NCBI RefSeq assembly: GCF_000621165.1
Contig: NZ_JHZA01000011.1
Location: 62,001 to 126,000 of the forward strand
From: Enterovibrio calviensis DSM 14347
Lineage (GTDB): Bacteria > Pseudomonadota > Gammaproteobacteria > Enterobacterales > Vibrionaceae
Direction: 5' to 3'
DNA: 64,000 nt
The position numbers and the translations under genes were made by a program. A model generated the notes under the pieces. It worked only from the letters and a program-made list of their open reading frames with translations, was not told the origin of the DNA and ran no database searches. Below are positions 1-24,906 of this stretch, one piece after another. Every line of letters begins with the position of its first letter. Within the stretch, counting starts at the first letter, position 1.

Positions 1-43
1 GCGACTCGGATTCGAAGTCACCCTCTATATCAGCAATCGTTGA
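1..43 (+). CDS. pqqA: PqqA, PQQ precursor peptide (3' end only)
   Basis: From base 2 the frame reads RLGFEVTLYISNR and then a TGA stop. The Glu and Tyr in E-V-T-L-Y have the E-x3-Y spacing that PqqE cross-links when PQQ is made from the peptide. The start lies outside the window. It is followed by a hairpin and then pqqB, the normal pqqA-pqqB order. Only 13 codons are visible, but motif and context make the call strong. Confidence 0.9.
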   Translation, partial: RLGFEVTLYISNR

Positions 44-1161: not shown

Positions 1162-1207
1162 GCGCAAAACGTCAATAACAAAAAGCGATGCCCAAGGAGG
1201 GACGATG

Positions 1208-1966
1208 ATGAACGCGATGAGTCGAGAAGATTTTCAACATGCACTGCTAACCAAAGGGCAGTATTACCATATTCATCATCCCTTCCATAAAGCCATGTAC
1301 AGCGGCAACTGCTCGAAAGCGCAGATTCGCGCATGGGTGGCAAACCGCTTCTACTACCAAACCTCTATCCCTGTGAAAGATGCGGCCATCATGGCCAATT
1401 GTCGTGATCCGGCGATCCGCCGTGAATGGGTGCAGCGCATTCTTGATCATGATGGGCATCAGAGTTTGGATTGCCAATGGGGCGGTATTGAAGCCTGGCT
1501 TCGTTTAGCAGAAGCCGTCGGATTAGATCGCCAAGATGTGATTGATGAAAAATGGGTGTTGCCCGGCGTGCGTTTTGCGGTGGATGCTTACGTGAATTTT
1601 GCCCGCCGAGCGACGTGGCAAGAAGCAGCATGTTCCTCGTTGACCGAGTTATTTGCGCCGGAAATTCATCAGTCGAGATTGGACTCGTGGCCGACGCATT
1701 ATGGCTGGATTGATCCCGAAGGATTAACCTATTTCCGCCAGCGACTCAGTCAGGCGCGTCGCGATGTACAGCATGGTTTGTCGATCACCCTCGATCATTT
1801 TCAAACCGCAGAGCAGCAAGACAGAGCGCTCAATATCCTTCAGTTTAAGCTCGATATTCTTTGGTCATTATTAGATGCCATCAGCATGGCGTATGAATTT
1901 GAACGTCCGCCGTATGTGGGCATTACCGATAAGCCAGTCTGGCATCATGCGCTGGATCGATCGTAA
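1208..1966 (+). CDS. pqqC: PqqC, pyrroloquinoline-quinone synthase
   Basis: About 252 aa. Cofactor-less oxidase that carries out the final ring closure and oxidation to PQQ. The reading frame is open back to 1094, but that start would lie inside pqqB. AAGGAGG at 1194-1200 points to the ATG pair at 1205/1208, which gives the usual family length. Motifs fit Pqq[12 protein letters not shown] near the N-terminus, then WVANRFYYQ and the helix containing ILDHDG. The C-terminal sequence DAISMAYE is also typical. It starts about 45 bp after pqqB. Confidence 0.97.
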
Positions 1967-2029
1967 TGGCTGATCGCCAACTAAACTCAATGGCAGGTAA
2001 TAGTGACAGGGAACAAGGAGCGAAAACGC

Positions 2030-2296
2030 GTGACGGATGAAGCGAAGTACCAGCGAAATTCCATGTTTCGCATGCAGTTTGAAAAAGCGCAGGATTGCCA
2101 TGTGCTGCTGTTTCCTGAGGGGATGGTGAAACTGAGTGACAGTGCTGCGGAGATCTTAACGCAGTTTGCTTCACCTCGTGCGGTTAGCGAAGTGATTGCG
2201 CTGCTGGAAGAAAAATTCCCCGGTGCGGATTTGGCAGACGATGTGCATCAATTTGTGGAGGTGGCTTATGACAAAAAATGGATCGAGCGCTGTTAA
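2030..2296 (+). CDS. pqqD: PqqD, PqqA chaperone
   Basis: About 88 aa. Binds the PqqA peptide and presents it to PqqE. I start it at the GTG at 2030: AAGGAG lies 9 nt upstream and the length then matches the family (about 90 aa). An earlier ATG at 2003 would put that ribosome-binding site inside the gene. The winged-helix core [13 protein letters not shown] and the C-terminal segment [11 protein letters not shown] are typical. The end overlaps the start of pqqE by 29 bp, suggesting translational coupling. Confidence 0.93.
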
Positions 2297-3398
2297 TCCC
2301 CCGCTATGGTTGTTGGCAGAGCTGACTTATCGTTGCCCGCTTCACTGTGCTTATTGCTCCAATCCGCTCAATCTCGGCGACGCGGCAGACGAGCTTTCCA
2401 CCGAAGAGTGGTGTCGTGTACTGACTCAAGGACGCGAGCTTGGGGCGGTGCAGCTGGGCTTTTCGGGTGGCGAGCCTTTGCTTCGTAAAGATCTCGAACA
2501 GTTGGTCGCTCATGCCCATCAATTGGGTTACTACACCAACTTGATCACCTCTGCGGTCGGTTTAACAGAAAGGCGTATTGAAGCCTTAAAGCGGGCAGGG
2601 TTGGATCATATTCAGATCAGCTTTCAATCTGCCGATCCGGATTTAAGCGATGCGATCGCAGGAAAACGGCATGCCTTCGCGCACAAGAAAGCCATGTTCA
2701 ATGCGGTGAAAGCGCAGGGTTTCCCCATGGTGATGAACGTGGTGATCACGCGACAGAATATTGAATCGATTGAAGCCATCATGGCGTTAGCCATTGAACT
2801 GAATGCCGATTTCGTAGAGCTAGCCACCTCGCAATATTACGGCTGGGCGCTGCATAATCGTGACGCTTTGTTGCCAACGCGCACGCAGGTTGAGCAGGCG
2901 GAAGCCAAGGTCAACGCATTGCGAGACAAGCAACAAGGCGAAGGACCCAAGTTTATCTTTGTCACGCCGGATTATCACGAAGATCGCCCCAAGCCATGCA
3001 TGAGTGGCTGGGGAAATATTTTCATCAACATCGCGCCTGATGGTTTGGCGCTGCCTTGCCATAGCGCAGCGCTACTGGATCTGCCGCACCCCAATGTCAA
3101 AGAGCACGCACTTGCTGACATTTGGTACCACGCTGATAGCTTTAATCGCTTCCGCGGATTTGACTGGATGCGGGAACCTTGCCGAAGCTGTAATGAGAAG
3201 GAAAAGGATTATGGCGGTTGTCGGTGTCAGGCGATGTTGCTGACTGGCGACCCCGCAAACGCGGATCCGGTTTGCAGCAAGTCTCCTGATCATCACGTGA
3301 TCGAAGAGGCAGTTGCGAAGGCCAATCAAGGCTGTCATAGCATGGCATTGGCGCGAACCGTGAAGAACAGCCAGATCATCCTTTCCGTGAAACCCTGA
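2268..3398 (+). CDS. pqqE: PqqE, radical SAM/SPASM peptide cyclase
   Basis: 376 aa. Forms the carbon-carbon bond between Glu and Tyr of PqqA. The radical-SAM CX3CX2C cluster motif is C23-C27-C30. The C-terminal SPASM region supplies further cluster cysteines ([35 protein letters not shown]). The start at 2268 is chosen over the longer open frame from 2196 because GGAGG at 2257-2261 precedes it and the protein then begins next to the radical-SAM barrel as in homologues. Confidence 0.97.
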
Positions 3399-3412
3399 CA
3401 TGAGGAGCGTTT

Positions 3413-5449
3413 ATGGCGAAACCGCACCCAGCTGCACCGGATTGGATCTTGCTGTCGCCGAAGGATCAGCAACTCGACACCGGATGGGTAGGCTATCGTC
3501 ACGTCAGTGGGATGGTGCATTGGCATCATGCGGCATCGGATGATAATCGGCTAAGTGCATCGCTGGTGGTGCCCACTCCCGTGGAAGATGACAGTGGCAT
3601 TACCCATGCGCTCGAGCATATGGTGTTACGTGGGTCGATGCGATTCCCCGAACGTGAAACCTTTTTCTCTCTGCGCAGCGAGTTGGCGCTGTTGGAATTT
3701 AACGCGAGCACTAAAAAAGAATCGACGCGATTTCATTTGTCAGGCTATGACCCCCATTCAGCGTTACGAGGGATCGGCTTTTTTGCTGACAGTGTGCTGT
3801 CTCCCCAATTGACTTTAGAGGACTTTGAGCAAGAGATTTTCCATCCTCAAGGGGGCGGCATAGGTGGCACCTTGTATCGCGAAATCAACGAATACATGGG
3901 CTTTGAGCGGTTTCGTGCTTCCACCGTGCAAGCGGCAAACAGCGTGCCGCGTGCTGCGTTATTCGGCGGTATGCCTGATACCGTCACGCAGTTGGATATT
4001 GCGGCGCTTCGCCGCTATCACCATCACTACTATCGCCCTGAAAATATCTTACTGCTCACTGCGGGATCATGGCCGATGGTGCCGCTGTGGCGTCAAATGT
4101 CAAAAGCGCTGGAAGGCGTAAGCGCGCCGTTTTCTGTCACGTTGAACGAGCAACATATTCTCTCTTCTGTCGCGGCTGAAAAAGACGATGAACGCATTGA
4201 GACGTTGTCGTTATCTCCCCATTGGGCAGCGGTGTTACATACCACTTTAAGTTCACCCAAGTACGGGCAGCTTTTGAGTAACCTCGGTGCGCAGTTGCTT
4301 CCTTTGAATAATGATTTTCAACCCGCGCCAGCGTTGCGATTTCGTGCTTCACAACAATGCTCACTCTCTGTTCTTGAGCGCTTAGTGGACCTTGCGCGCC
4401 AACGTTTATCCCCTAAACGTACGGCATGGCAATCGGGTTATTTTAAGCTTCAACAAGGCCAAAGCATGGCGACACGGTGGGGGGATGGCTTACAGCGTTT
4501 GTACCATCATTTTTCTACCACGCCGTTTGCGCCACCCCATATGAAAGGGGAAGAGTGCGAACCACTTCCGAGCTTTTCTTTTGCTGAAAGCCCGCCTCAA
4601 GGCGAGTGGGTGACGCCGTGCCCGCCGTTAGCGAGGTTAGCAATATTGTGTCGTTTTAATGCGCGAGATACCGAAACCCGCGCCGATTTGACGCGCTGGC
4701 TTGCGCTTTGTGAGCAGCGAACATTGCGGTGGGCGTGGATGCAGAGCAAGCCTATTTTGGGTGAGATTAAAGAGTGGCACTGCGCCAATGCGGTGGTGAA
4801 AGGGTTGATGGTGGATTTACCCGAAAGCGATGTAGTGGCACTGCGTCATTTTTGGCATCACTCCTTATCTGCGAATGAGATCCATGCGATGGATGCAGAG
4901 TGGCAACACACGGCGCAAGGCATTGTGTTGAACTGCGCGGGGAGTGTGCCTGTGTTCCGTGCAGGCACCATTATGGCAAGTCATCGTGATGATGAAACCG
5001 CGATGCATGTGGCGTTGTCTTTTCCCCATACCACAGAGGCGGGCACGATGGCCGCGTTGGGGCAAGCCGTGATGGCATCTTATCTCCTTCTGCAGCGACG
5101 ACTTGGAGGACGTTGTTATAGCCTAAGTGTTTCACTGGATTTAATGAGTTATGAGCTGACGTTTGACTCGGTCGCGGACAGTGATCCGAGCATTAGTTTC
5201 ATTGCGCTGCTGAATGCCTTTGAAACCTTGTGTTCTCCGTTAGATGACGGGGATATAGAAAAGGTCTGCAGTGGAGGAATGGGGCTGGTCTCGGCACGAT
5301 ACAACAAATCACATGCCCGTTTTCATCAGGCATTGCTCAATACTGTCGGCCGAAGTGTGGCACTGGATTTTTCTGTTGTCTCTCCTGCCAGTTTGGCGCA
5401 GTTGGCAACCCAAGTGCTCTATGCGCTAAAGCACACCACGCTGCATTAA
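3413..5449 (+). CDS. pqqF: PqqF-like zinc protease (M16 family)
   Basis: 678 aa. Predicted to release the modified Glu-Tyr from PqqA. The inverted zinc motif HxxEH is H65-A-L-E68-H69, and the third ligand is probably a Glu in YREINEY (E157 or E160). The N-terminal catalytic lobe is conserved; the C-terminal half is divergent, as usual for PqqF. It is somewhat shorter than the enterobacterial protein (about 760 aa). It begins 14 bp after pqqE and closes the operon, convergent with the response regulator gene. Confidence 0.88.
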   Translation: MAKPHPAAPDWILLSPKDQQLDTGWVGYRHVSGMVHWHHAASDDNRLSASLVVPTPVEDDSGITHALEHMVLRGSMRFPERETFFSLRSELALLEFNASTKKESTRFHLSGYDPHSALRGIGFFADSVLSPQLTLEDFEQEIFHPQGGGIGGTLYREINEYMGFERFRASTVQAANSVPRAALFGGMPDTVTQLDIAALRRYHHHYYRPENILLLTAGSWPMVPLWRQMSKALEGVSAPFSVTLNEQHILSSVAAEKDDERIETLSLSPHWAAVLHTTLSSPKYGQLLSNLGAQLLPLNNDFQPAPALRFRASQQCSLSVLERLVDLARQRLSPKRTAWQSGYFKLQQGQSMATRWGDGLQRLYHHFSTTPFAPPHMKGEECEPLPSFSFAESPPQGEWVTPCPPLARLAILCRFNARDTETRADLTRWLALCEQRTLRWAWMQSKPILGEIKEWHCANAVVKGLMVDLPESDVVALRHFWHHSLSANEIHAMDAEWQHTAQGIVLNCAGSVPVFRAGTIMASHRDDETAMHVALSFPHTTEAGTMAALGQAVMASYLLLQRRLGGRCYSLSVSLDLMSYELTFDSVADSDPSISFIALLNAFETLCSPLDDGDIEKVCSGGMGLVSARYNKSHARFHQALLNTVGRSVALDFSVVSPASLAQLATQVLYALKHTTLH

Positions 5450-5501: not shown

Positions 5502-6170
5502 TCAGCGCCGTAGGTAGCGATCGAAATCAATGTTAGTCACGCCAACCACCGCTTGGATTCGATTGTGGACACCGAGCTTTTTCAAGATTGCAGAGACGTG
5601 GGATTTCACGGTGGTCTCCGAAATGTTGAGGTCGTAAGCGATCTGTTTGTTGGCTGCGCCTTGCGCCATGGACTTCAACACCAACAATTGGCGTCGCGTC
5701 AGGGTGTGCAGCATTTCTGGTGAGAATTGGGGATCGTCGTTGCGTCTTTGTCCGCTGCTATTGTCGTTCTCTGCTCGAATAATGTCCGCTGGCAGATAAA
5801 CGTGACCGTCCAGTATTTGTTCAAATGCCTCGCGCATTTTCTCTCTCGGAGCGCTCTTCGCGATGAAACCGACAGCACCGTACGCGATGGTTTGTAGAAT
5901 AATTTGTTTGTTGGTTTCCGCTGAAATAATGGCGACAGGAATAGTGGGGAATTGATTGCGTAGCTCAAGTAAGCCTTTAAGGCCCGCCATACCCGGCATA
6001 TTTAGATCCAGTAAAATCAGGTCCAAATCTGAGTGGTCTTGTGCCAATACGAGCGTGTGCTCAATGTCTTCCGATTGAAGAATGTCGCACTCTTCGTAAC
6101 GTCCGCGAATGACGGAGATTAATGCGTCACGAAAAAGAGGATGATCATCGGCAACGAGAAATTTGTACAT
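5502..6170 (-). CDS. LuxR-type response regulator (AgmR/ErbR-like)
   Basis: 222 aa. N-terminal receiver domain with acidic pair D8-D9, phospho-acceptor D55 (LLDLNMPG) and the lysine in FIAKS. The C-terminal LuxR/NarL helix-turn-helix contains LTRRQLLVLKSMAQGAANKQIA and KSHVSAILKKLGV. Regulators of this type control PQQ-dependent alcohol dehydrogenase genes in Pseudomonas. It lies between pqqF (convergent) and the FIST/kinase pair (divergent), so it is probably the partner of that kinase. The target genes are inferred. Confidence 0.9.
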   Translation of the reverse strand: MYKFLVADDHPLFRDALISVIRGRYEECDILQSEDIEHTLVLAQDHSDLDLILLDLNMPGMAGLKGLLELRNQFPTIPVAIISAETNKQIILQTIAYGAVGFIAKSAPREKMREAFEQILDGHVYLPADIIRAENDNSSGQRRNDDPQFSPEMLHTLTRRQLLVLKSMAQGAANKQIAYDLNISETTVKSHVSAILKKLGVHNRIQAVVGVTNIDFDRYLRR

Positions 6171-6528
6171 AAAACAGTCCTTTCAAGTAGTCGCACCACC
6201 ATCGTCCTGACAGGGCTCACAACTATATTGCTGCTGGTAAAAACTGACATTACTTTGTTTTAATTGTGATTTTCTGCGGTTTGATTATGTGGGGCGTATC
6301 ATCACGACATAGATAATCAAACGCTTTGACAGCACTTCAGTGTAGTGACCCTGATTCCACTTGTGACCCATAGGGTGTCACATTCTTGAAAATTTTGGTC
6401 AACAGACTTTGCAAATTTGTAAATATCCTTCCTAAGTATGAGGTTTCATTCCTCCCTGACCGAGTAAACTAAAACATACGCAACCGTATTCGGACTCGCT
6501 CAACATGATGTGCGAGCAGGAGGGTGAC
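6171..6528. promoter_or_regulatory. Divergent promoter region, response regulator / nosP
   Basis: 358 bp without a gene. It contains a direct repeat GTGACCC (6345-6351 and 6363-6369, 18 bp apart) whose second copy is the left arm of an imperfect dyad ending GGGTGTCACA (6362-6382). These are candidate operator sites for the adjacent regulator. No clear -35/-10 pair could be assigned. Confidence 0.45.
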
Positions 6529-7797
6529 ATGGCAGCAGTTCAACCATCAGTAACTCAAGCATCAGATAATCAACAAGCCATCTATCGCGCCGCAACCTAT
6601 CAACTGGATGCTGGTAAAGCGGCACATGAACTGGCGCTTCAGCTTGATAATGAAGAGATAGGCTTTGTGTTGTTCTTTTGTTCATCGGCCTACGATTTGG
6701 AGGCGTTGGGGAAAGAAATGAACCATGCCTTTTCGCATTGTGAGGTCATGGGATGCACCTCCGCGGGTGAAATTACGCAATCTGGCTATGCCAAAAGCAG
6801 CATCAGCGCGCTGGGTTTCTCGCGTCGCGATTTCAAAGTGTCGGGCGCGCGCGTTCCCCTCGAAGAGTTCGATTTACAAGCGGCGCAGTTGTGTGTGAGT
6901 TCGCTGGTAGAAGCGTGTCAGCAAGATCAGAAAGCGCCTATCGGCAGCAATACCTTTGTGTTGACCTTAATTGATGGTCTCTCACCGAACGAAGAAAGGT
7001 TTTTGGTGACCTTGGACACGGCGCTCGGACGCTTACCTCACTTTGGCGGGTCGGCGGGCGATGACATCAACCTAGCAAACACCCATGTCTACAGTGAGGG
7101 CGCGTTCCATACCGAGTCGGCGATTGTGGTGATGTTCAACACCCATTGCCCGTTCGAAGTTTTTACCACCCACCACATAGAAAGCCTTGAGAGTAAATTG
7201 GTGGTAACCGAAGCTGATTGCACAGCACGACGTGTCTATGAATTTAACGCTGAGCCTGCCGCACAAGTTTATGCGCGAGAAGTGGGGATTGCGCTAGAAG
7301 ATCTGCGCCCTGAAATTTATGCCCTTCATCCGTTGGCAGTGCTGATTGGCGATCAGTATTACGTTCGCTCTATCCAAAAGGTCAATGACGACCTGAGCCT
7401 CGATTTTTATTGCGCCGTGGACGATGGCATCGTGGTGACCGCAATGCAGCCCGGCGATTTGTTTGCTGACACCCAAGAGAAGCTCAGTGCCATCGAAGCC
7501 CGTATCGGCCAGCTTGAACTGACGTTAGGGTGCGATTGTTTCTTACGTCGTTTGGAAATCGAGCAAGCACAAATGCGTGACAAAGCGAAAGCCATGTTCT
7601 CGCGATTTCGATTGCTGGGTTTCAATACTTACGGTGAGCAGCTAAACGGCATTCACATGAACCAAACCCTAACCGGAGTGATGATTGGTCGGCCGCCCCA
7701 GCCTCCAGAACCTGAGTTTGAAAATGGCCAAAGCGACGACGGCTTCGAAACAAAAGGCGATGCAACCAAAGGCGAAGCAGCGAGAAAGGTAGGGTAA
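6529..7797 (+). CDS. NosP-like FIST-domain sensor protein
   Basis: About 422 aa. An N-terminal FIST domain (roughly residues 25-220, with GCTSAGEI and FGGSAGDD) is followed by a FIST_C domain (roughly 225-390). FIST proteins next to PAS histidine kinases (PA1975/PA1976 in P. aeruginosa, VpsV/VpsS in Vibrio cholerae) are described as NosP, a haem-binding nitric oxide sensor that controls the kinase. AGGAGG at 6518-6523 favours the ATG at 6529 over 6505/6508. The gene abuts the kinase directly. Haem binding here is inferred from family and context. Confidence 0.85.
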   Translation: MAAVQPSVTQASDNQQAIYRAATYQLDAGKAAHELALQLDNEEIGFVLFFCSSAYDLEALGKEMNHAFSHCEVMGCTSAGEITQSGYAKSSISALGFSRRDFKVSGARVPLEEFDLQAAQLCVSSLVEACQQDQKAPIGSNTFVLTLIDGLSPNEERFLVTLDTALGRLPHFGGSAGDDINLANTHVYSEGAFHTESAIVVMFNTHCPFEVFTTHHIESLESKLVVTEADCTARRVYEFNAEPAAQVYAREVGIALEDLRPEIYALHPLAVLIGDQYYVRSIQKVNDDLSLDFYCAVDDGIVVTAMQPGDLFADTQEKLSAIEARIGQLELTLGCDCFLRRLEIEQAQMRDKAKAMFSRFRLLGFNTYGEQLNGIHMNQTLTGVMIGRPPQPPEPEFENGQSDDGFETKGDATKGEAARKVG

Positions 7798-10434
7798 GTG
7801 AGCGATAAGCAGCAGGCACTAGAACAAGAACTGGCAGCGCTGAAAACCGAAAACGCCCGTCAAAAAAAGATGATTGATGCGTTGGTTCGTCGCGTTGAAC
7901 AAGGCGGAAGCGGCCAGCTTGATGCTTGGGGTGCCTTCCAGCACTCGGTAGTATTAGCCGATCAGGTGCGCGAAAAAACCGATGAGCTGAATCATGCGCT
8001 GCAATCCATTGAGTCCGCAAACCGCCAATTGTCCCAAGCCAAATCACAGGCTGAAAAAGCGCATCAGCGTTTCATTGATGCCATTGAATCGATTTCTGAC
8101 GGCTTTGCTTTGTACGATCCCAACCGTGAGTTGGTCTATTCCAATAGCCATTTTCAGCGCTATTGGCGCGACAATGCCATTTCGCTGAATACCCCCGCTC
8201 TTACGCCAGAAAAAATTCGCAGGCTCGCCGAAGAGCATGGATTGATCGTGCGTGAAGTGAGTGAAAACCACAATGGGAATACCATCAAGCTGCATGACGA
8301 TCGCTGGCTGCAAATCAAAGAGCGAGAAACCAGCGATGGCGGGATGGTGATGCTCTACTCTGACGTGACGCAGTTAAAGTTGGCCGAAACTGCGCGCTTT
8401 GAAGCGGCGATGGCAGAGAAAAGCCGTGTCTTGCAAAACATGGTCGATAACTTATCTCAGGGTGTGCTCATGGTGAGTCATACCGGTGATATTCAAGTGT
8501 TCAATCAGCGCTTTTTGGCTATGACAGGCTTCGACCAATCTCAGTTAAATGGCGCGCATATCGAAGCCTTAACGGCGGATTCTCCCATGACGTTGTGGCG
8601 CATTGGATTAGGTGGAACACACCCACCTGAAGGGATCCGTGTGCAAACTTTGTCGGACGGTCGGGTTATTGAAGTGCGCAGTCACGCCATGGACGATGAC
8701 GGATACGTTAATACTTACACAGACATTACGCAGCGCTACCTTGATGCGAAAGAGCTACGTGAAACCGAGCAATGGCTGAGGTTGATCACTGACAATGTGC
8801 CCGCTTTGATTGCTTATGTGGGAGACGATCTTCGTTATCAATTCACCAACCGAGCGTATGACCAATGGTATGGCTTCCCGCCGGGTGAGTTGCTTGGACA
8901 GCATATTTCCATTTCTCGAAGCCAATCCAAATTTGCCGCGTTGAAACCGTATGTTGAACGCGCGCTTTCTGGTGAGTCCGTGGTGTTTGAAATAGAGGAA
9001 TATAACGCCAGCGGCGAGGCGCGTTACGTCGTAAAAAGTTATGTGCCGAACCAATCGTCAAGCGGGAAAATTACGGGTTTATTTGTGCTTAATTGGGACA
9101 TTACTGAGCGCCGACAAAATGCGACGAAGTTAGAGCAGGCCTATCAAACCCTTGAACTTCGCGTGCAAGAACGCACGGCACAGCTGCAAACACTTAACAG
9201 CCAGTTGCAGGATGAAGTTGAAGAGCGTCGGGTGATCCAAGAACGCTTGCTAGAAACCAAGAAAGAGGCAGAACGCGCCAATTTATCGAAAACCAAATTT
9301 CTTGCGGCTATCAGCCACGATTTGTTGCAACCGCTTAACGCCGCGCAATTGTATTTGGGATCGTTACTGAGTCATCGCATGTCGCCATCTGCGCGCAAAT
9401 TGGTGAATTCCTTGGCGCATTCCCTCGAAGATGTAGAGTCGTTGATCACCACGCTGGTGGAAATTTCTAAGCTGGATGCGGGCGTGGTCAGGGCGGATAA
9501 ACAGTCATTTCCTGTCAGTGATTTGCTGGACAACATTGCACATGACTTTTCACATGCCGCCGAGCGCAGTCAGGTCGAAGTACGCTACGTGCCAAGTTCC
9601 GCTTACATCTATTCAGATTCACAACTTCTTGCCCGTATTCTTCGTAATCTCATGACCAACGCCTTGCGTTATACGTCTTCTGGAAAAATCTTACTGGGGA
9701 GCCGACGTTGCCGCGATGGGCTTCGCATTGAGGTGCTTGATACGGGAATGGGTATTCCTGAAGATAAGAAGAATGAAATTTTTCAGGAGTTTAAGCGTTT
9801 GAGCACAGGGCATGACCATCACCATACTCAACTGGGCTTAGGGCTTGCCATCGTCGATAAGATTTCCAGTGTATTAGGCCATGCGGTGACGGTTAACTCC
9901 GTTCCCGATGTCGGCTCACGTTTTTCTGTGCTTGTGCCCTATGGTGCGACGGAAGTGACGAGTTCGCGAAACGTTGAATCACTGGTGGCAGATGGCGAAG
10001 TGGCCCTTCAAGGGGCGCGTGTATGGGTGGTCGATAACGACCAAAATATTTGCCGTGCAATGGAAGAGCTTTTGCAGCGTTGGGGGTGTGAAGTGACCAC
10101 TGCCAGTTCGTTGCAGGAACTGCAAATCAGTTGTGACACCGTGCAATGCCCTGTGGAGTTGTTGATCGCGGATTATCACCTCGACAATGAGCTAACGGGG
10201 CTGGCACTGGCAAAATCCATTAACGCGCAACGATTACAGCCTGTCCCAACCGTGATAGTGACCGCTAATCGCAGTGAGGAGCTTCAGCACCATGCGCGAG
10301 ATTGTGGTTACCTCGTGCTGCACAAACCGATATCTCCTATGCGTCTAAAAATGACGATGGTGCATTTGTTGAGTGGCGATCATGCCGACAGCCTGCCATT
10401 GAAAAACACGCCGATAGCATCTCGAAATCGATAA
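7798..10434 (+). CDS. NahK/ErcS'-like hybrid histidine kinase
   Basis: 878 aa with a GTG start that immediately follows the nosP stop codon. Domains in order: N-terminal coiled coil (about 1-90), three PAS domains (about 91-195, 211-310, 325-440), coiled coil (445-490), HisKA with H507 in ISHDLLQP, HATPase with an N-box near residue 614 (LRNLMTNALRY) and the G-boxes DTGMGIPEDK and GLGLAIV, and a receiver from about 739 with phospho-acceptor D792 (LIADYHLD). No transmembrane segment is evident, so it is cytosolic. Probably inhibited or switched by the FIST partner and feeding the LuxR regulator; this is inferred from related systems. Confidence 0.9.
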   Translation: MSDKQQALEQELAALKTENARQKKMIDALVRRVEQGGSGQLDAWGAFQHSVVLADQVREKTDELNHALQSIESANRQLSQAKSQAEKAHQRFIDAIESISDGFALYDPNRELVYSNSHFQRYWRDNAISLNTPALTPEKIRRLAEEHGLIVREVSENHNGNTIKLHDDRWLQIKERETSDGGMVMLYSDVTQLKLAETARFEAAMAEKSRVLQNMVDNLSQGVLMVSHTGDIQVFNQRFLAMTGFDQSQLNGAHIEALTADSPMTLWRIGLGGTHPPEGIRVQTLSDGRVIEVRSHAMDDDGYVNTYTDITQRYLDAKELRETEQWLRLITDNVPALIAYVGDDLRYQFTNRAYDQWYGFPPGELLGQHISISRSQSKFAALKPYVERALSGESVVFEIEEYNASGEARYVVKSYVPNQSSSGKITGLFVLNWDITERRQNATKLEQAYQTLELRVQERTAQLQTLNSQLQDEVEERRVIQERLLETKKEAERANLSKTKFLAAISHDLLQPLNAAQLYLGSLLSHRMSPSARKLVNSLAHSLEDVESLITTLVEISKLDAGVVRADKQSFPVSDLLDNIAHDFSHAAERSQVEVRYVPSSAYIYSDSQLLARILRNLMTNALRYTSSGKILLGSRRCRDGLRIEVLDTGMGIPEDKKNEIFQEFKRLSTGHDHHHTQLGLGLAIVDKISSVLGHAVTVNSVPDVGSRFSVLVPYGATEVTSSRNVESLVADGEVALQGARVWVVDNDQNICRAMEELLQRWGCEVTTASSLQELQISCDTVQCPVELLIADYHLDNELTGLALAKSINAQRLQPVPTVIVTANRSEELQHHARDCGYLVLHKPISPMRLKMTMVHLLSGDHADSLPLKNTPIASRNR

Positions 10435-17710: not shown

Positions 17711-18310
17711 TCATGACTTCCCGTTTTCATGGTTTTGCATGGCTTGGCGAATTTGCTTAGCCAGCGCTTTGATCCCTCGTTCATTTAATGCTTGTTGCTG
17801 CCCTTTTATCTCTACGATGATTTCTGGCATTTGCTGGCCAGTGGGCACGTGAACAAGGTGGGTAATGAGGTAGGCAAATAAGAAGCTGGGCTTATGAAGG
17901 CGGCTAACTGCGACCCATTCCGCATCGACAGACTGCCCTAGCTCTGCGGCCTTGTTGGGATGAGAAAAGAGATAACCAAAGCCTTTGTCAGCGTCCAAAT
18001 AGCGCTTCGGTGATACAGGCACAATATCCAGTGAATGTTGGGTGTGTAGTGTGTTTCTTAGAAGCGCAGCAAGCGAGGCAGTGCGAGCAATTTCTGCGGC
18101 GTTAGGGGGATTGGCATGGTATTGAGTATCGCGGGCGTTTTCTGGCAAGGTGAGGTCGTTAAGTTCAAATTCAAGCACGGCGATGGATGCAAAGGCGATG
18201 GGTACCCAAGCCAAAAGCAGGGCAATGAATAGCATGATGAGAAAAGGTCTGATGCCACTTATCGTTTTCTTAACGACAAATGGCACCGGATTGTCTTTAC
18301 ACTTGCGCAT
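17711..18310 (-). CDS. DUF2380-like periplasmic protein of quinoprotein cluster
   Basis: 199 aa. A long N-terminal signal or anchor (residues about 22-42, FLIMLFIALLLAWVPIAFAS) is followed by the strand IAVLEFELNDLT and the helix ARTASLAALLRNTL. This pattern is seen in DUF2380/DUF3280-type proteins found beside PQQ dehydrogenase genes; which of the two I cannot settle. Last gene of the minus-strand cluster, 5 bp after the XoxJ-like gene. No ribosome site is obvious at the ATG, so translation may be coupled. Biochemical role unknown. Confidence 0.7.
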   Translation of the reverse strand: MRKCKDNPVPFVVKKTISGIRPFLIMLFIALLLAWVPIAFASIAVLEFELNDLTLPENARDTQYHANPPNAAEIARTASLAALLRNTLHTQHSLDIVPVSPKRYLDADKGFGYLFSHPNKAAELGQSVDAEWVAVSRLHKPSFLFAYLITHLVHVPTGQQMPEIIVEIKGQQQALNERGIKALAKQIRQAMQNHENGKS

Positions 18311-18315
18311 GATGG

Positions 18316-19194
18316 TTAGTCATCATCGTCTCCGCCGAAGGGCTTTGATGAGGCTTCGACGACAGGCACACCGTAGTCATTCAAAATCATGGCGATTTGA
18401 GGTGCGTTCGCATCCATGGCCATTTCCACGGTTTCTTTCCAAGGCCGTTCACCGTATCTCACGCCCATCGACATAGGGAAATCGAACACATTGCTGCCTT
18501 CGGATACCATGGAGATCACGGCAAGATCGGGATGAGATTTGGCAAAATATCCCGCAATAGGGCCCCAAATGACCAACATATCGAACTCACCGTCAGCAAC
18601 GCGGTTGACCATTTTTCCTGGGTAGTCTTCTCCATCACCATTCATGATGCGGAAAAACGAGGTGTTGTTTTTAAAGCCGTTATCTCTGAGCCAAGTGACT
18701 GCCGGAGAGGGCGCGAACGCGGCGATATTCAGCGATTTCTTTACGCTGTCAGGTACGGTAGCGACATCTTGTTGCGTCACCGCCGAGCCGAGAGGGCCGT
18801 CTTTTTTAAAGATGATTGAATATGACGAACGGTAATAGGGTTTGGTTGTTGCCGCGATATCAAATTGAGAAGGAACCCCGATAACCAAATCACAGGCAAA
18901 TCGCCCGTTATCATCAGACCAATTTTTTAAGGTGTTGCGGATAAACCCCATGCGTTGTGGAAACCAAACGTATTCCACATCAAGCCCCCAATACTCGCCC
19001 AGTTGTTCGGCGATTTTGTTTTCAAACCCTTGCTGATCTTTGTTGGAATAGGGAAGGTTATTAGGGTCTGCACATATTCTTAACTTGTCAGGCAGAGGAG
19101 CTGGCGTTGACATGTTGGCTGCCAATGCCGGAGAAAGGGTTAAGGCCAATGACAAAGCGAAGAGGGCAATACAGCGATTGAAGAGAGAATTCAT
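18316..19194 (-). CDS. XoxJ-like quinoprotein-associated binding protein
   Basis: 292 aa. Signal peptide (cleavage after ALAA, about residue 26) and a periplasmic solute-binding fold of the family-3 type, beginning LRICADPNNLPYSN. This opening is typical of the quinoprotein dehydrogenase-associated binding proteins (MxaJ/XoxJ group), which are thought to help activate the dehydrogenase rather than serve an ABC transporter. No ABC permease is nearby, in agreement. AGGAGG lies 5 nt before the start. The protein ends in an unusual acidic tail, GGDDDD. Confidence 0.87.
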   Translation of the reverse strand: MNSLFNRCIALFALSLALTLSPALAANMSTPAPLPDKLRICADPNNLPYSNKDQQGFENKIAEQLGEYWGLDVEYVWFPQRMGFIRNTLKNWSDDNGRFACDLVIGVPSQFDIAATTKPYYRSSYSIIFKKDGPLGSAVTQQDVATVPDSVKKSLNIAAFAPSPAVTWLRDNGFKNNTSFFRIMNGDGEDYPGKMVNRVADGEFDMLVIWGPIAGYFAKSHPDLAVISMVSEGSNVFDFPMSMGVRYGERPWKETVEMAMDANAPQIAMILNDYGVPVVEASSKPFGGDDDD

Positions 19195-19203
19195 CGTTGC
19201 CTC

Positions 19204-19581
19204 CTATTGGACTTGGGTGATTTGTTGGGCGACAAAACATTGCTGATCCGCTTCATCGCGTATCGCTAGTAGTTCGCCACGTGCCGTGCGGCTGTCTTTG
19301 GATGAGCGGAAGTACCCGCCGCGCTCGCCGCGCATGTTGCGTAGACGCAAAAAGGCATCGGCGTGAATGTAGTCGTCAAAGGTGAGTTGGTTGGCGATTT
19401 TGTCAATCACACAGCTACAGCCGTACATGTTGACGTAAGAAGGGCCGCCTTTAAGTGCCATGCACTCTTGAACGAATTTGACTCTTTCTAACGTGGGGTA
19501 GTCATTGGCGCTAGCGGGCGTGGATAGTGCCAACAGTGCCAAACCAATGAGCGAACTTACCGTTTTTACTGCTTTTAACAT
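19204..19581 (-). CDS. Small four-cysteine periplasmic protein
   Basis: 125 aa. The ATG at 19581 follows AGGAGG; the frame is open further upstream without a ribosome site. Signal peptide (cleavage near PASAND, residue 25), then a mature part of 100 aa with C40, C55, C57 (GCSCVIDKI) and C115. No CxxCH, so it is not a c-type cytochrome. Lies between the cupredoxin and XoxJ-like genes. Family not recognised; a metal site or disulfide-stabilised helper of the dehydrogenase is possible. Confidence 0.75.
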   Translation of the reverse strand: MLKAVKTVSSLIGLALLALSTPASANDYPTLERVKFVQECMALKGGPSYVNMYGCSCVIDKIANQLTFDDYIHADAFLRLRNMRGERGGYFRSSKDSRTARGELLAIRDEADQQCFVAQQITQVQ

Positions 19582-19676
19582 AAGCTGCCTCCTGCAATCT
19601 ACTTGTGACGTCTTGGTGTCAATGTCGATGTGACGACGTCTATTGCGTAACAATAATTGGCCTTACAACATCGGCC

Positions 19677-20126
19677 TTACAACAACCCCTCAGCTTGAAG
19701 TTGTTTGCGGAATTTCTTCAACAGTCCTTTAGCGGGAAGAAGGGACTTATCTTTTTTGATTTCTTCCATGTAGCTGTCAATGATGCCGTCGATGTTACTG
19801 GGGTTACCGACCAACAAGATGCCGCCCATTCTTGCTCCCCAATGTGGTGTGCACTTGTAGACATAGACACCTTCGTTTTCAAAAACAAAGCTAACGTCAG
19901 CCCCCATTTCTGTTTGAATTTTTTCTGTGCCCTCTGGCACCATTACATCAATGGTTTCAATAAGGTGAGCCGGCATGTTTGTCCATGAAACCCGGTCACC
20001 CGGTTGTAGCATCACCACTAAAGGAGCGAATTTCACGCCGACAGCCTTTATTTCATATTCTTCTGCGTATCCCTGATTTGCCAATCCAAATAACAAGCAA
20101 AGTGACCATAAAAAACGTTTAGCCAT
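19677..20126 (-). CDS. Pseudoazurin-type cupredoxin
   Basis: 149 aa. Signal peptide to about residue 21 (GYAEEYE), then a type-1 copper fold. The ligands are H54, C92, H95 and M100. The C-x2-H-x4-M spacing and the 38 residues from first His to Cys are those of pseudoazurin. Starts at the ATG at 20126 after AAAGGAA. It lies 112 bp downstream of the XoxF-like dehydrogenase in the position where methylotrophs have a cytochrome c gene, so it is a likely periplasmic electron carrier for that enzyme; this is inferred. Confidence 0.88.
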   Translation of the reverse strand: MAKRFLWSLCLLFGLANQGYAEEYEIKAVGVKFAPLVVMLQPGDRVSWTNMPAHLIETIDVMVPEGTEKIQTEMGADVSFVFENEGVYVYKCTPHWGARMGGILLVGNPSNIDGIIDSYMEEIKKDKSLLPAKGLLKKFRKQLQAEGLL

Positions 20127-20238
20127 ATGAATTCCTTTTTTCGCAATTGCGTTGAGTGTAGAAGGCAACACCTTCGTGCAATGGGTAGCAATGCATCGAA
20201 GTTGAGAAAGGGGAGTAAACTCCCCTAAAAATTGTGGA

Positions 20239-22047
20239 TTAGTTAGGTAGTGCGAAGACGGTCAACACGCCGCCAAGCTGGGTGTAGTCTGACAATTTAC
20301 GATATGCACCTACCGCGCCCAGTCCGTCAGTATCACCTTCGAGACCTGCAGCCATACCGATACCTGCCCAACCACCAACGCCGGAAAGAACAGCAATGTA
20401 TTGCTTGCCGTCGTGAACATAGGTATTCACGTTACCGATAATGCCGGACGGTGTTTTGAAGCGATAAAGCTCTTTGCCGGTTTTTTCATCCACGGCTTTG
20501 AGGTAGCCCTCAAGCGTGCCGTAAAACACAACGCCACCGCCAGTAGCCAATGCGCCACTCCATACGGAGAATGGCTCAGGGATAGACCAAACGATCTCAC
20601 CTTTTTCTGCATCCCACGCAATAAAGTTACCTAAGCCGCCATGGCTATTCGGCGCTGGGAACATGGATAGTGTTGCACCCACGTAAGGTTGGCCTGCGGT
20701 GTACGCCACTTCAAACGGTTCATAGTTCATGCACACGTGGTTAGTTGGTACATAGAACAAGCCTGTGCGCTCACTGTAAGTCGCTGGTTGTTGGTCTTTT
20801 GAACCCAATGCCGCAGGACAAATGCCTTTGGTATCGACATCTTCACCGTTTTGACCGGTTGAGTATTTCGCGACGACCTGCGGACGACCAGTTTCCATGT
20901 CGACATGGGTTGCCCAGTTAACGGCAGGGTCGAATTTCTCAGCCACTAACAATTCGCCAGTGACGCGATCGAGGGTGTAGCCAAAACCGTTGCGGTCGAA
21001 GTGAACCAGCAGTTTGCGATCTTTGCCTTTGAACTTTTTATCCACCAAGATCATTTCGTTGACGCCGTCATAATCCCACTCATCGTGTGGTGTCATTTGG
21101 TAGAGCCACTTGGCCATACCGGTGTCAGCATCACGCGCCATGATGGTCATGGAATATTTGTTGTCGCCAGGACGTTGAGACGGGTTCCACGTACTTGGGT
21201 TACCGGTTCCGTAGTAAACGAGGTTTAGCTCAGGATCGTAAGAGAACCAGCCCCAAGTGGTACCGCCACCAATTTTCCATTGGTCGCCTTCCCAAGATTC
21301 AAGGCTCGAATCTTTGCCGATTGGCTTGAGCATCTCTGTGGTTTTTTCTGGGTCAACGAGCATTTCGTCATCTGGCCCTGTGCTATATGCACGCCAAGCG
21401 ACGCTGCCATCTTTGGTGTTATAAGCGGTAAGGTAACCGCGGACACCAAACTCACCACCACTGATCCCTGTGATGATTTTGTCTTTCACAACCAATGGGG
21501 CATTGGTGTTTGTGCCGCCAGATTTAGGATCGCCGTTCACGACTTTCCAAACCACCTCACCGGTTTTTTGATCGAGAGCGACCAGAGTGGTATCTGCTTG
21601 TTGTAAAAATATTTTACCGTCTGAATATGCCAAGCCACGGTTGACCGTGTCACAACACATGACCGCGATAACTGATGAGTCTTGTTTTGGTGAATATTCC
21701 CAAATCAAAGCTTTGGTTTTTAGATCAATCGCGAACACTTTGTTAGGAAAAGGTGTGTGAATGTACATGGTGTCACCCAACACAAGTGGTCCGCCTTCAT
21801 GACCGCGCAAAACGCCCGTTGAGAACGTCCATGCGACTTGAAGATCTTTCGCGTTTTTTGCATTGATCTGATCAAGAGCGCTGTAACGTGTGCCGGAATA
21901 GTTGCCGCCCCACATTACCCATTGCTCAGGATCTTGCTGTAACTCTAAGAGCTCACTGTTTGCCTGAGATACTGCTGGAAACAGCAGGGTAAGGGAAACA
22001 GTTGCTACTGCGAATATACTGCTTCGCAACCTTTCTACACCTATCAT
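20239..22047 (-). CDS. XoxF-like PQQ alcohol dehydrogenase, lanthanide type
   Basis: 602 aa from the ATG at 22047, preceded by GGAGGAAG; the frame is open to 22101 without a site. Signal peptide, then an eight-bladed propeller with W-motifs. Hallmarks: vicinal disulfide C131-C132 (MCCDT), Glu in SGGEFGVRG and Asn in YGTGNPSTW as metal ligands, and the catalytic D325 followed by D327 (WDYDGVN). The second Asp marks lanthanide-dependent enzymes (XoxF, PedH); calcium MxaF has Ala there. The N-terminal [14 protein letters not shown] and C-terminal GLGAVGAY segments are methanol-dehydrogenase-like. Oxidises a primary alcohol or aldehyde in the periplasm; the substrate is not predictable from sequence. 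Confidence 0.93.
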
Positions 22048-22621
22048 GTTTACTTCCTCCGTGGCAGCGAGTGCACGCGAACAATGGATGTTCTCAAACA
22101 CATCAGCCTTTGTTGTATCGATTTTTTGATGGGCGCAATCCGCGGGTTGTAAGGGACGCTATTTTGGCCAGTACTCAACAAAATCCAGTACTCAAAGTAA
22201 CGCTGTGCCTAATGTTGCCAAGCGCAGTGTTGCGTTGGTGGCGTGTTGGCGAAATACAACTATGCGGTCTCGCGTTTCAGCATTGACCCCGAATGCCAAT
22301 TCATTCCAACATCGAATGAGGAGACGAATATGCCGCTCATTGACAACGAAGTGACGTCATCAAAACGTTGGTGAATTGAGTTTATGGCAGGTTTGGAGGT
22401 TGTGTGAGGAGCAAACGGGCACAACACTTTTGTTGCAAGGCAACAATGTCTGAGAGATGAAAATTGACCATTAACCCACTAATATTTCGAGGATTAATGG
22501 TCAGTCACAAAGCAAGGATTTAGCGGTTTTTACAAGGGTGGTACAGATGTCGTCTCTGTCTTTTCAGTAAGATACGACACCTCAATAACCTTATTTTTTG
22601 TTGGGATTTATTACATCACAT
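22048..22621 (-). promoter_or_regulatory. Long control region upstream of the XoxF-like gene
   Basis: 574 bp without a gene. It holds a perfect 11-bp direct repeat CCAGTACTCAA (22168-22178 and 22185-22195, 17 bp apart), 121-148 bp upstream of the start, and a perfect 10-bp inverted repeat TGACCATTAA / TTAATGGTCA (22465-22474 and 22494-22503). Both are candidate regulator sites. No T-run terminator was found for the upstream gene, so read-through is possible. Confidence 0.55.
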
Positions 22622-23416
22622 TCAAATGTCCCATTCGCGGGAAAATTCTCGTCCCATTGAATCCTTAACATCCGCTTTTAGTGTTCCTTGTTTCTCGGCG
22701 TCGACATGAAACGTGAACGTCGGATTCTCACTGATCGAGATGCCACCGTTAAATTGCATCACAGGATCGCCATCAAGGGTGATCTGCACATCACTGACAT
22801 AGTCAGAAGGGATCCAGTGGCGGGTGACTTGATCTATCTGTAGGCCACTGTAGTTGGGGTGGCTGATCAGAAGTTGCAGCATACGCGTGTCAGCATTGCC
22901 AAGATCTTTGAGTTTCATTTTTCCCATTCGTTGGCGAGCCAGTAGATCATCTGCCCCTGCTGGCGCAGAGCATCCACCTGAGGCTTTTACAAAATTACTG
23001 GTCATATGGAGTTTGCCGTCAGCGGTTTGTGCAATCACTCGGACAGGGCTGTAAGCGTTGACGCGGACACGCGTTGAGATGTTTGCCACGCCGTTGTTTG
23101 GACTCATGTCGAAAGTGCCAACGATAGGGGAGGGATTGTTATCGACGATCAGGTGGATGCGTTCGATCGGGTTAGGATCGTCTTGTCTGACGTTCACTTT
23201 GATGTCGAGTGGCACGAGTGCGGCATCAATGGCGCGAACGGGTGACACCAGTTCGACGATGTCATCTTCTAGGATTGGAGGCGATCCCGGAAATAGGCTG
23301 TCACGGATCAGCGGCCAGTTAACGCTTTCCTGCTGACTTTGCGCCAACGACAGCGGCGAGAAGACTGTCAGAAAGGCAGCGAGTAGCGTAGCAAGTAACG
23401 CGGGGGTCTTGTTCAT
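22622..23416 (-). CDS. Quinoprotein-associated SoxYZ-like carrier
   Basis: 264 aa. Signal peptide (cleavage near LSLAQS, residue 25). A SoxY-like N-terminal domain ends at the GGC motif (C149 in ASGGCSAPAG), followed by a SoxZ-like domain. The fusion of the two is the form found near PQQ dehydrogenases. In Sox systems the GGC cysteine carries sulfur intermediates on a swinging arm; the substrate in quinoprotein clusters is not established. It lies 15 bp after the metallohydrolase gene. Confidence 0.85.
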   Translation of the reverse strand: MNKTPALLATLLAAFLTVFSPLSLAQSQQESVNWPLIRDSLFPGSPPILEDDIVELVSPVRAIDAALVPLDIKVNVRQDDPNPIERIHLIVDNNPSPIVGTFDMSPNNGVANISTRVRVNAYSPVRVIAQTADGKLHMTSNFVKASGGCSAPAGADDLLARQRMGKMKLKDLGNADTRMLQLLISHPNYSGLQIDQVTRHWIPSDYVSDVQITLDGDPVMQFNGGISISENPTFTFHVDAEKQGTLKADVKDSMGREFSREWDI

Positions 23417-23431
23417 GATGAGTACCTCATA

Positions 23432-24349
23432 TCATTCCCACTCCAGTTCCTTGTATGCCTGAATGACGTTGCGTCCGTGAAACTGTTCAAACAGTTTCCA
23501 ATTGTCGGCATGGGATCTTAGTACCGTAAGGCTGGCAGTGTTGATATCGATGTTTTGATTAATCGCGGCACGAACTTCTTGTGCCAGTGAGCGAAGGTAG
23601 TGAGTTTGTGCATCAAATGCATTTTTTCCTGTTTGAATAGGGCCGTGCCCCGGTATCACCCGTTGATAGGGCATTGTGTTGAGTGTGCTGATCACCGAAA
23701 GCCAGCCGATTAAGCTGCCATCCAGTGATGGAACGTGGTCAACGAAGAGTAAATCACCGGCGATGAGGGTTTCCGAGTTGACGTCAAACACCGTTAAATC
23801 GTGGCGTGTGTGGGCGCGTTCGTGGGCGATGAGCTTTAAGCGCCGTTGACCCAAATCGATGTCGGCATCTTTTTCAATCAGACGCGTGGCGGCAACTGGC
23901 GTGGTGCCTTCAAACCATGGGGCGGAGAGGCGTTGCAGGTAATAATTGGCCTTGGCATCGAAGTCGCCCGCATAACGGGCGTGGGCAATAAATTCGGGGT
24001 TTTCGGAAACGAAGGCTTGATTACCAAAATTGTGGTCGGGATGAACATGGGTATTGATGACATAACGAATCGGCAGCGCGGTGATTTGACGAATGGCGCG
24101 ATAGAGCATTTCACCCGCTCGTCGACTGCCACCGGTATCAATAACGGCCACTGCCTCTTCGCCAATGATCACGGTAATGTTGGCAACCGGATCGAATTGA
24201 GTGGAGAACAGATCCGCAATTTTCCCTTGATGAAAGTAGATACCAGGCGAGACTTCCGTCAGTGATAGCGCAGGTTGAGTATTGGCAGATGCGCTGAACG
24301 CCAATAGCCAAATACTCAAAGAGATGCAAAGTGCTCGAATACGCGTCAT
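23432..24349 (-). CDS. Quinoprotein relay zinc metallohydrolase (SoxH-like)
   Basis: 305 aa from the ATG at 24349. Metallo-beta-lactamase fold with the metal motif HVHPDH (in INTHVHPDHNFGN), later histidines in HERAHTRHDL and IPGHGP, and an N-terminal signal peptide (cleavage near FSASANTQ). Resembles the SoxH-like hydrolases grouped with PQQ dehydrogenases. The start overlaps the stop of the preceding gene as ATGA. Probably periplasmic; the thiol-ester or persulfide substrate is inferred only. Confidence 0.86.
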   Translation of the reverse strand: MTRIRALCISLSIWLLAFSASANTQPALSLTEVSPGIYFHQGKIADLFSTQFDPVANITVIIGEEAVAVIDTGGSRRAGEMLYRAIRQITALPIRYVINTHVHPDHNFGNQAFVSENPEFIAHARYAGDFDAKANYYLQRLSAPWFEGTTPVAATRLIEKDADIDLGQRRLKLIAHERAHTRHDLTVFDVNSETLIAGDLLFVDHVPSLDGSLIGWLSVISTLNTMPYQRVIPGHGPIQTGKNAFDAQTHYLRSLAQEVRAAINQNIDINTASLTVLRSHADNWKLFEQFHGRNVIQAYKELEWE

Positions 24350-24906
24350 GGTCGGATCGGGGTGTGGCTTTCCAGCGCAAATCCCGCCTCTCGCCAGCCT
24401 TTCACGCCCGCTCGATACCAGTAGACATCTTGCCCACCGAGTGCGATGGCGCGCTTGGCGGCATTCCATGAATGCCAGCAGTTAGGCTCACAAAAAATCA
24501 CGATAGGGTGACTGCCTACGAGGTTTTCTCCCAGCAGGGCTATCAGTGAATCCGGCATGATGCCGTGTCCAACATTGGCGAGCCACAAGGCGTTGGGCAA
24601 GGTCTCCCGTGTTGGTTCAATCCAGAGTGTGCCGTCAGCGAGGTTATCTGGTTTGTTTGGGGCTGGGTAAACGTCAATTAAGCGCGGTGCGCGCTCAGAA
24701 ATAAATTGTTTCAGTGCCTGCGGCGAATCAATCACGTTTGCGCCATCCAATGTGTTTGGAACTGGCGCACGAAAATTCTCCATGCGATAGGTGTCAGGTT
24801 CCGGCACGGGTTCTAGCTCTGTATTGGCTATGACACTAAATGCGCAAAAACAGAGCAAAATCGCATACTTAAGATGCTTTTTCTTTCCTTCCACATGGCT
24901 GTTCAT
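24346..24906 (-). CDS. Rhodanese-like PQQ-associated Cys-Trp protein
   Basis: 186 aa. N-terminal signal or anchor (residues about 12-28) and a rhodanese-like fold whose active loop is FCEPNCWHSWNAAKRA. This cysteine-Trp motif marks the PQQ-catabolism-associated 'CXXCW' family; here the two cysteines have three residues between them. First gene of the minus-strand run, with GGAAG near the start and a 20-bp dyad just upstream. Could handle sulfane sulfur for the SoxYZ-like carrier; inferred. Confidence 0.85.
   Translation of the reverse strand: MNSHVEGKKKHLKYAILLCFCAFSVIANTELEPVPEPDTYRMENFRAPVPNTLDGANVIDSPQALKQFISERAPRLIDVYPAPNKPDNLADGTLWIEPTRETLPNALWLANVGHGIMPDSLIALLGENLVGSHPIVIFCEPNCWHSWNAAKRAIALGGQDVYWYRAGVKGWREAGFALESHTPIRP

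Follow-up and report, generated by a model that had tools for sequence, protein, structure and literature searches.

The closest described counterpart of the gene cluster considered here is the XoxF5–XoxG–XoxJ system (for example, in Methylorubrum extorquens), in which the cytochrome XoxG is regarded as the dedicated electron acceptor of XoxF (PMC5874918; PMC11845868, legend to Figure 4). A lanthanide enzyme is already known in the Enterovibrio/Grimontia group, because Table 1 of PMC11845868, which covers the enzyme only, lists the XoxF5 of Grimontia marina CECT 8713 as La–Nd dependent with a Km of 24 ± 2 µM. Related systems include the ped cluster of Pseudomonas putida (PedE/PedH, PedF, PP_2666, PP_2677 and PP_2678) and the Calvin-cycle methylotrophs Bradyrhizobium, Sinorhizobium and Paracoccus; for Bradyrhizobium and Sinorhizobium, passages of PMC12628762 propose and support a methanol-oxidation route with CO2 refixation. 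Methanol use in Vibrionaceae has a precedent, since Photobacterium indicum, of another genus in the family, is tabulated as a methanol utilizer in PMC3763247, in an entry without gene or lanthanide data. Here we describe an eight-gene cluster in a 64,000-nucleotide stretch of the 5.5-Mb, 28-contig genome of Enterovibrio calviensis DSM 14347 (C8:62001–126000, hereafter the window), in which a predicted XoxF5 gene is followed, in the slot otherwise held by xoxG, by a gene for a pseudoazurin-type blue-copper protein.

All eight minus-strand genes reported at 17711–24906 by a first-pass annotation were verified by an open reading frame (ORF) check. In order of transcription they encode a CXXCW rhodanese, a SoxH-like metallohydrolase, a SoxYZ-like carrier, XoxF, pseudoazurin, a four-cysteine protein, a XoxJ-like protein and a DUF3280 protein (Table 1). 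The dehydrogenase scores 778.6 bits to TIGR03075, and its nearest solved structures are the lanthanide XoxF enzymes 6DAM (1004.7 bits) and 6OC5 (983.8 bits), all others in the PDB search reaching at most 694.9 bits. Residues E217, N301, D343 and D345 (numbering of the 620-residue ORF) are identical in 79 of 79 XoxF rows, as are the vicinal cysteines Cys149–Cys150; two of the 80 loci used were omitted from this alignment as their genes are broken. Counted along the PDB alignment, the four residues align with Glu197, Asn285, Asp327 and Asp329, the ligands of 6DAM according to Table 1 of PMC11845868. The best PDB matches are XoxF of M. buryatense and M. extorquens, the former an XoxF5 in PMC11845868. 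Judged by its sequence, the dehydrogenase has all four lanthanide ligands and is probably an XoxF5, an assignment based on these PDB matches and on the XoxF5 label of the G. marina orthologue. The XoxF-type label given in the first-pass annotation therefore stands; a placement outside XoxF and PedH, which it had allowed for, is not what was found, as the enzyme resembles XoxF5 most.

The nine closest named XoxF records all come from Enterovibrio or Grimontia (90–97% identity), which places the host in the Enterovibrio/Grimontia group and agrees with the Vibrionaceae setting proposed earlier. Orthologues are 97% identical in Enterovibrio sp. ZSDZ42, 94% in E. norvegicus FF-33, 93% in G. indica and 93.7% in G. 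marina CECT 8713 (L037). Within the family, PQQ (pyrroloquinoline quinone) dehydrogenases were found at E ≤ 1e-50 in 25 of 329 genomes, and XoxF of the window kind, defined as pieces at ≥83% identity (fragmented in G019 and G029), in just 15: 14 of the 18 of the window's genus, its own counted, and G036. Such a XoxF is thus no common property of Vibrionaceae, a point that the first-pass annotation had left to be checked for the cluster. The four genus members without XoxF have genomes of 2.1–3.7 Mb. Split genes were also seen, xoxF lying in two ORFs in Enterovibrio nigricans DSM 22720 (L040) and in several in Enterovibrio sp. JCM 19048 (L049), through either decay or sequencing error.

The copper protein exceeds the PF00127 cut-off and PDB pseudoazurins align with it, so the pseudoazurin label of the first-pass annotation holds at this level; the NCBIfam equivalog TIGR02375 is not reached (60.5 versus 109.85 bits), and the position in the XoxG slot had gone unremarked. 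We read the protein as a divergent relative of TIGR02375 pseudoazurins. Residues H59, C97, H100 and M105, which we take to be the type-1 copper ligands His, Cys, His and Met, are invariant in nine of nine aligned rows, as is the tail motif SLLPAKGLLKKF. Among the 80 named loci nearest to the window XoxF (4–22 kb each), 61 have XoxG, called at 130–189 bits with a profile made from 16 of these 61, 12 have pseudoazurin, seven have neither and none has both; a simpler assignment rule gave 58, 12 and 10 for XoxG, pseudoazurin and neither. The pseudoazurin loci comprise 11 from Vibrionaceae, in every one of which the gene follows xoxF in the XoxG slot, and one from a gammaproteobacterial metagenome-assembled genome (L046). 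The carrier-less loci are L069 and L083 (both with xoxF at a contig end), L078, L102 and L105 (Methylopilaceae), L110 and L111.

A search of all 18 genus genomes revealed no XoxG, the best profile match reaching 30.4 bits as against 130–189 for XoxG neighbours; this match, in G021, directly follows a distant PQQ dehydrogenase. In the host's own genome, TIGR03872 reaches 27.5 of 147.8 bits. The cluster thus shares with the M. extorquens type of system an XoxF5 with the same metal ligands, a XoxJ-like protein and nearby relay genes, and differs from it in the carrier. No copper acceptor for XoxF was found in the open-access literature, as sampled chiefly through listings, abstract starts and passages. 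The carrier is a new variant beside a known enzyme and a known accessory kit.

To look beyond Vibrionaceae, 369 gammaproteobacterial genomes were searched with the pseudoazurin profile; 33 gave a match at E ≤ 1e-15, the host's own counted, and 35 stretches from the other 32, many of them drafts and several stretches ending at contig ends, were examined. Pseudoazurin adjoins a xoxJ or xoxF homologue in 19 of these 32 genomes and a xoxF homologue in nine; a PQQ dehydrogenase is matched at 1e-50 in 22, and 15 carry a XoxF that scores ≥800 bits, with XoxG at ≤37 bits in 10 of the 15. The same low XoxG score applies to five of the nine genomes with a xoxF neighbour (G419, G461, G541, G574 and G642). 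In seven pseudoazurin–xoxJ loci without xoxF, inspection by eye, with no scan, revealed no common alternative enzyme; seven of the 10 genomes with this xoxF-less pair type carry a XoxF of ≥800 bits elsewhere. In one pair genome, G398, a MxaF-like gene has Ala at the lanthanide Asp position. Separately, similar proteins, encoded by ORFs of 264–509 residues with a motif like LSEAETLLWxTDHL, lie downstream of xoxJ in L191, L195 and L211, which have pairs without neighbouring xoxF.

In a quick XoxF tree of 97 rows (support by Shimodaira–Hasegawa-like approximate likelihood ratio test, SH-aLRT, only), pseudoazurin-linked rows fall in two places within a single group of 37 rows (99). One place holds Vibrionaceae together with L046, L045 and L047; the other is a 17-row group (100) from the surveyed genomes, with seven linked rows and 10 from genomes with pseudoazurin elsewhere. 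Its starred branches require at least three changes of carrier label. In the pseudoazurin tree of 52 rows, a supported branch (99/98) separates 11 rows, all unlinked, from 41, comprising 22 linked rows, 12 from Vibrionaceae, L046 and six unlinked rows (G336, G468 and G488).

Vibrionaceae are best known for fermenters. The first-pass annotation had suggested a complete alcohol-oxidation system, and gene content bears this out, with the further formaldehyde, formate and Calvin genes, like a second, PedH-type enzyme, all lying outside the window and so beyond its view. Both frmA and fghA are over cut-off, as are the gamma and alpha subunits of a formate dehydrogenase set with a NuoF-like subunit between them. 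On one strand of the Calvin locus lie cbbL, cbbS and the genes for CbbQ, for a VWA protein at the place of cbbO and for a CbbR-like regulator that scores 278.5 bits against a cut-off of 450; the opposite strand encodes a class-II aldolase, phosphoribulokinase and fructose-bisphosphatase, and genes of a cbb3 oxidase are close by. This check covered the key genes of the cycle. Phage-like genes (DUF3653, Bro-N) also lie near the Calvin operon (L122:6525–7890). RuBisCO occurs in 17 of 329 Vibrionaceae genomes, namely in 13 of the 15 with XoxF (fragmented in G029 and G036) and, among the remaining 314, in four, one of them at 62% identity. Fisher's test of this association gives p = 4e-18 for all genomes and 0.005 inside the genus, neither value correcting for shared ancestry. 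Enterovibrio calviensis is counted as Calvin-positive in PMC7895386, and a passage of PMC12875217 mentions Enterovibrio and Grimontia CbbL matches. No report of methanol growth of Enterovibrio or Grimontia was found in the open-access literature searched, largely listings and abstracts.

A second PQQ dehydrogenase gene ends ~4.3 kb before the window. The product looked ExaA-like at first sight, and a Ca-type enzyme was considered and rejected, as the lanthanide Asp is present (WDFDG as in 6ZCV/6ZCW, versus WDFSG in 1FLG); it scores 981.6 bits to 6ZCV versus 634.7 to 1FLG. Its sequence marks it as a PedH/ExaF-type lanthanide ethanol dehydrogenase. No third gene of the genome passes TIGR03075, and both that do so have the lanthanide Asp. 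The gene for PedF (TIGR04494, 188 bits, cut-off 122) lies 1.4 kb before the PedH-type gene, and the surroundings also include a binding protein, ExaC, PQQ-ABC genes and a NosR-like protein (under cut-off). The host thus shares with P. putida the rhodanese/SoxYZ-like/SoxH-like trio, PedF and a PedH-type enzyme with WDFDG; it differs in adding XoxF5 and pseudoazurin, and in having only the two TIGR03075 genes, both with the lanthanide Asp. An Asp at this position was present in all 13 non-XoxF loci read (L020–L029 outside the genus; L032–L034 inside, L033 being the host's own). The first ten of these are PQQ alcohol dehydrogenases from ten Vibrionaceae genomes.

We consider it probable that the cluster encodes a periplasmic XoxF5–PQQ system with pseudoazurin replacing XoxG, with potential for autotrophic lanthanide methylotrophy where RuBisCO is present. 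Methanol would be oxidized in the periplasm by lanthanide–PQQ–XoxF5, an activity reported for the G. marina enzyme. Pseudoazurin would reoxidize the reduced PQQ and could pass its electrons to a cytochrome or the cbb3 oxidase; we infer this electron transfer because of the XoxG slot, the conservation of the protein and the failure to find XoxG. The XoxJ-like, four-cysteine, rhodanese, SoxYZ-like and SoxH-like proteins may mature or protect XoxF5, by acting on the vicinal disulfide, the metal or PQQ; for the trio this is a published hypothesis, for the four-cysteine protein a guess. Formaldehyde would be converted to formate by the glutathione route (frmA, fghA), an NAD-type formate dehydrogenase would take the formate to CO2, and the Calvin operon would refix the CO2; the genes of these steps are present, and flux through them, like growth on methanol, is presumed. 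This gene set for presumed growth on methanol resembles that of Bradyrhizobium, Sinorhizobium and Paracoccus, which likewise combine XoxF and formate dehydrogenase with glutathione-linked oxidation of formaldehyde and the Calvin cycle; it differs in that the host belongs to Vibrionaceae and that XoxG was not found. If correct, a copper carrier in the place of XoxG would tie lanthanide use to copper rather than heme iron, explain XoxF genomes without XoxG and offer an alternative acceptor for bioelectrochemical use, and if Enterovibrio/Grimontia take methanol to CO2 by a lanthanide path and have RuBisCO, Vibrionaceae methylotrophy would be widened. More tentative, and in our view slightly short of an even call, is the general proposition that XoxF of Vibrionaceae, and of several further families of Gammaproteobacteria, reduces a blue-copper protein dedicated to it, either in place of XoxG or alongside it, that heme and copper carrier types have been exchanged more than once, and that Enterovibrio/Grimontia are lanthanide-dependent autotrophic methylotrophs.

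Several observations weigh against these proposals. Both the acceptor role of pseudoazurin and growth on methanol are inferred. The survey was seeded with a Vibrionaceae profile and so favours its kin. Outside Vibrionaceae the carriers are not strictly exclusive, because some pseudoazurin genomes keep XoxG too: among the 15 with a XoxF of ≥800 bits, XoxG reaches ≥100 bits in four (G339, G394, G448 and G630) and 66 bits in G670, and among the nine with a xoxF neighbour it reaches ≥100 bits in G339, G448 and G492 (whose xoxF homologue is truncated by a contig end) and again 66 in G670. The closest XoxF kin outside Vibrionaceae include L045 and L047, both with XoxG. The xoxF homologue beside pseudoazurin in G642 (L207:8572–10419) has lost the four metal ligands and kept the Cys–Cys pair, and may be a quinoprotein that works without metal or has been repurposed. 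Foremost among rival acceptors is the cytochrome c550 PedF, which is encoded in the genome and could serve XoxF from the neighbouring ped-type cluster, shared with the PedH-type enzyme, while pseudoazurin would act elsewhere, for example in copper supply or protection. P. putida PedF reoxidizes both PedE and PedH (as stated in PMC12997753); the invariable position of pseudoazurin after xoxF in the 11 Vibrionaceae loci and the linkage of similar pseudoazurins to xoxJ or xoxF homologues in 19 other genomes argue against this alternative, which we regard as unlikely. Far less probable still is that pseudoazurin serves denitrification or copper handling and owes its linkage to xoxF to chance or shared regulation: in the two plasmid records inspected for contrast, out of 283 with a match, a pseudoazurin does lie beside nirK (Maritalea) or copper-resistance genes (Methylophaga), but the linked pseudoazurins gather on one side of the supported branch with only six unlinked rows.

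Compatible with either electron acceptor is the view that XoxF does not feed growth on methanol, its main task being to clear or sense methanol or other alcohols or just to supply energy, with the Calvin operon serving another energy source. In its favour, and against autotrophic methylotrophy, RuBisCO is absent from G017 and G027, two XoxF-bearing members of the genus, and four other Vibrionaceae carry RuBisCO without XoxF of the window kind; moreover, the overall Fisher p is overstated, because the association lies largely within one genus. The presence of RuBisCO in all but two of the 15 XoxF genomes and the match of the gene set to that of methanol growth in Bradyrhizobium and Sinorhizobium, as set out in passages of PMC12628762, speak against this view, and we hold the alcohol-removal or energy-only alternative to be plausible, if on balance doubtful.

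The accessory genes are widely shared. Within the 80 loci, homologues (60 bits by phmmer; 30 bits for the four-cysteine profile) lie beside XoxF in 78 cases for the XoxJ-like protein, 66 for rhodanese, 64 for the metallohydrolase, 46 for the four-cysteine protein, 45 for the SoxYZ-like carrier and 12 for the DUF3280-like protein, counts that are lower bounds because the loci span 4–22 kb only. All three members of the relay trio (TIGR03865, TIGR04557 and TIGR04559) are over cut-off in the cluster, and section 15 of PMC12997753 describes the trio as conserved with lanthanide quinoproteins, suggesting roles in disulfide formation, cofactor stabilization or PQQ protection. The first-pass annotation had called the gene combination unusual; we reject this reading, because these genes commonly accompany XoxF and there is nothing new in their mere combination. 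Its XoxJ-like, DUF2380-like, SoxYZ-like, SoxH-like and rhodanese-like labels were all confirmed by family models, which are over cut-off for every cluster protein except the four-cysteine protein. In the latter, the four cysteines are invariant in 23 of 23 rows; the window protein has no Pfam match, no Pfam family matches more than one of the 23 members, and a search of NCBIfam with the window protein alone gave no match.

Table 1 Features of the window, with coordinates counted from its first nucleotide
Feature	Coordinates	Strand	Basis
Rhodanese-like CXXCW protein, signal peptide by inspection	24346..24906	-	TIGR03865 161.6 bits, cut-off 128.05
SoxH-like zinc metallohydrolase 2	23432..24349, ORF open to 24469	-	TIGR04559 356.8 bits, cut-off 280; start by inspection
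Fused SoxYZ-like carrier	22622..23416	-	TIGR04557 259 bits, cut-off 140
Predicted XoxF5 lanthanide-type methanol dehydrogenase	20239..22047, ORF open to 22101	-	6DAM/6OC5 top PDB matches; metal ligands kept
Pseudoazurin-type blue-copper protein, XoxG slot, proposed electron acceptor	19677..20126	-	PF00127; PDB pseudoazurins; invariant ligand positions
Four-cysteine protein, signal peptide by inspection	19204..19581	-	Four invariant Cys; without family model
XoxJ-like periplasmic binding protein (TIGR03871 = XoxJ/MoxJ_2)	18316..19194	-	TIGR03871 241.1 bits, cut-off 212.15
DUF3280/DUF2380 protein	17711..18310	-	PF11684 55.1 bits, cut-off 30.1
pqqA 3' end (presumed), gene begins before window at C8:61972	1..43	+	23-residue ORF in L120
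pqqB, pqqC, PqqD-like ORF, pqqE, PqqF-like	241..5449	+	TIGR02108, TIGR02111, TIGR02109 over cut-off
ErdR-like regulator (-), NosP (+), NahK-family kinase (+)	5502..10434	mixed	NF041558, NF041832 over cut-off

Leaders resembling signal peptides were judged by inspection to be present on all eight cluster proteins. The likely start of xoxF has GGAGG 8 nucleotides upstream and leaves a gap of ~570 bases after the SoxYZ-like gene; that of the metallohydrolase gene falls inside the 3' end of the rhodanese gene, and the starts of the pseudoazurin and four-cysteine genes in Table 1 are likewise the likely ones. The GC content of the cluster is close to that of the window (49.3% versus 49.1%), and there is therefore no sign of recent import. 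A scan for promoters and terminators found fewer sites than in shuffled sequence, and no use was made of it. Next to the rhodanese gene and in divergent orientation to it, a gene at 25055–25996 encodes, by inspection, a LysR-type regulator, which may control the cluster.

The PQQ pathway was found near the cluster as the first-pass annotation had claimed, at a distance of ~12 kb rather than 15 kb. The short ORF at the window start is presumably pqqA, judged by the PqqA motif, and the PqqD-like ORF is a tentative assignment; the stretch at 3413–5449 has a weak M16-peptidase match only (PqqF-like; NF011681, 21.1 bits). Beside the pqq genes, a match to NF041830 remains below cut-off (174.4 of 390 bits), and the ErdR-like regulator, the nitric oxide sensor NosP and the NahK-family kinase encoded there may link alcohol oxidation to nitric oxide.

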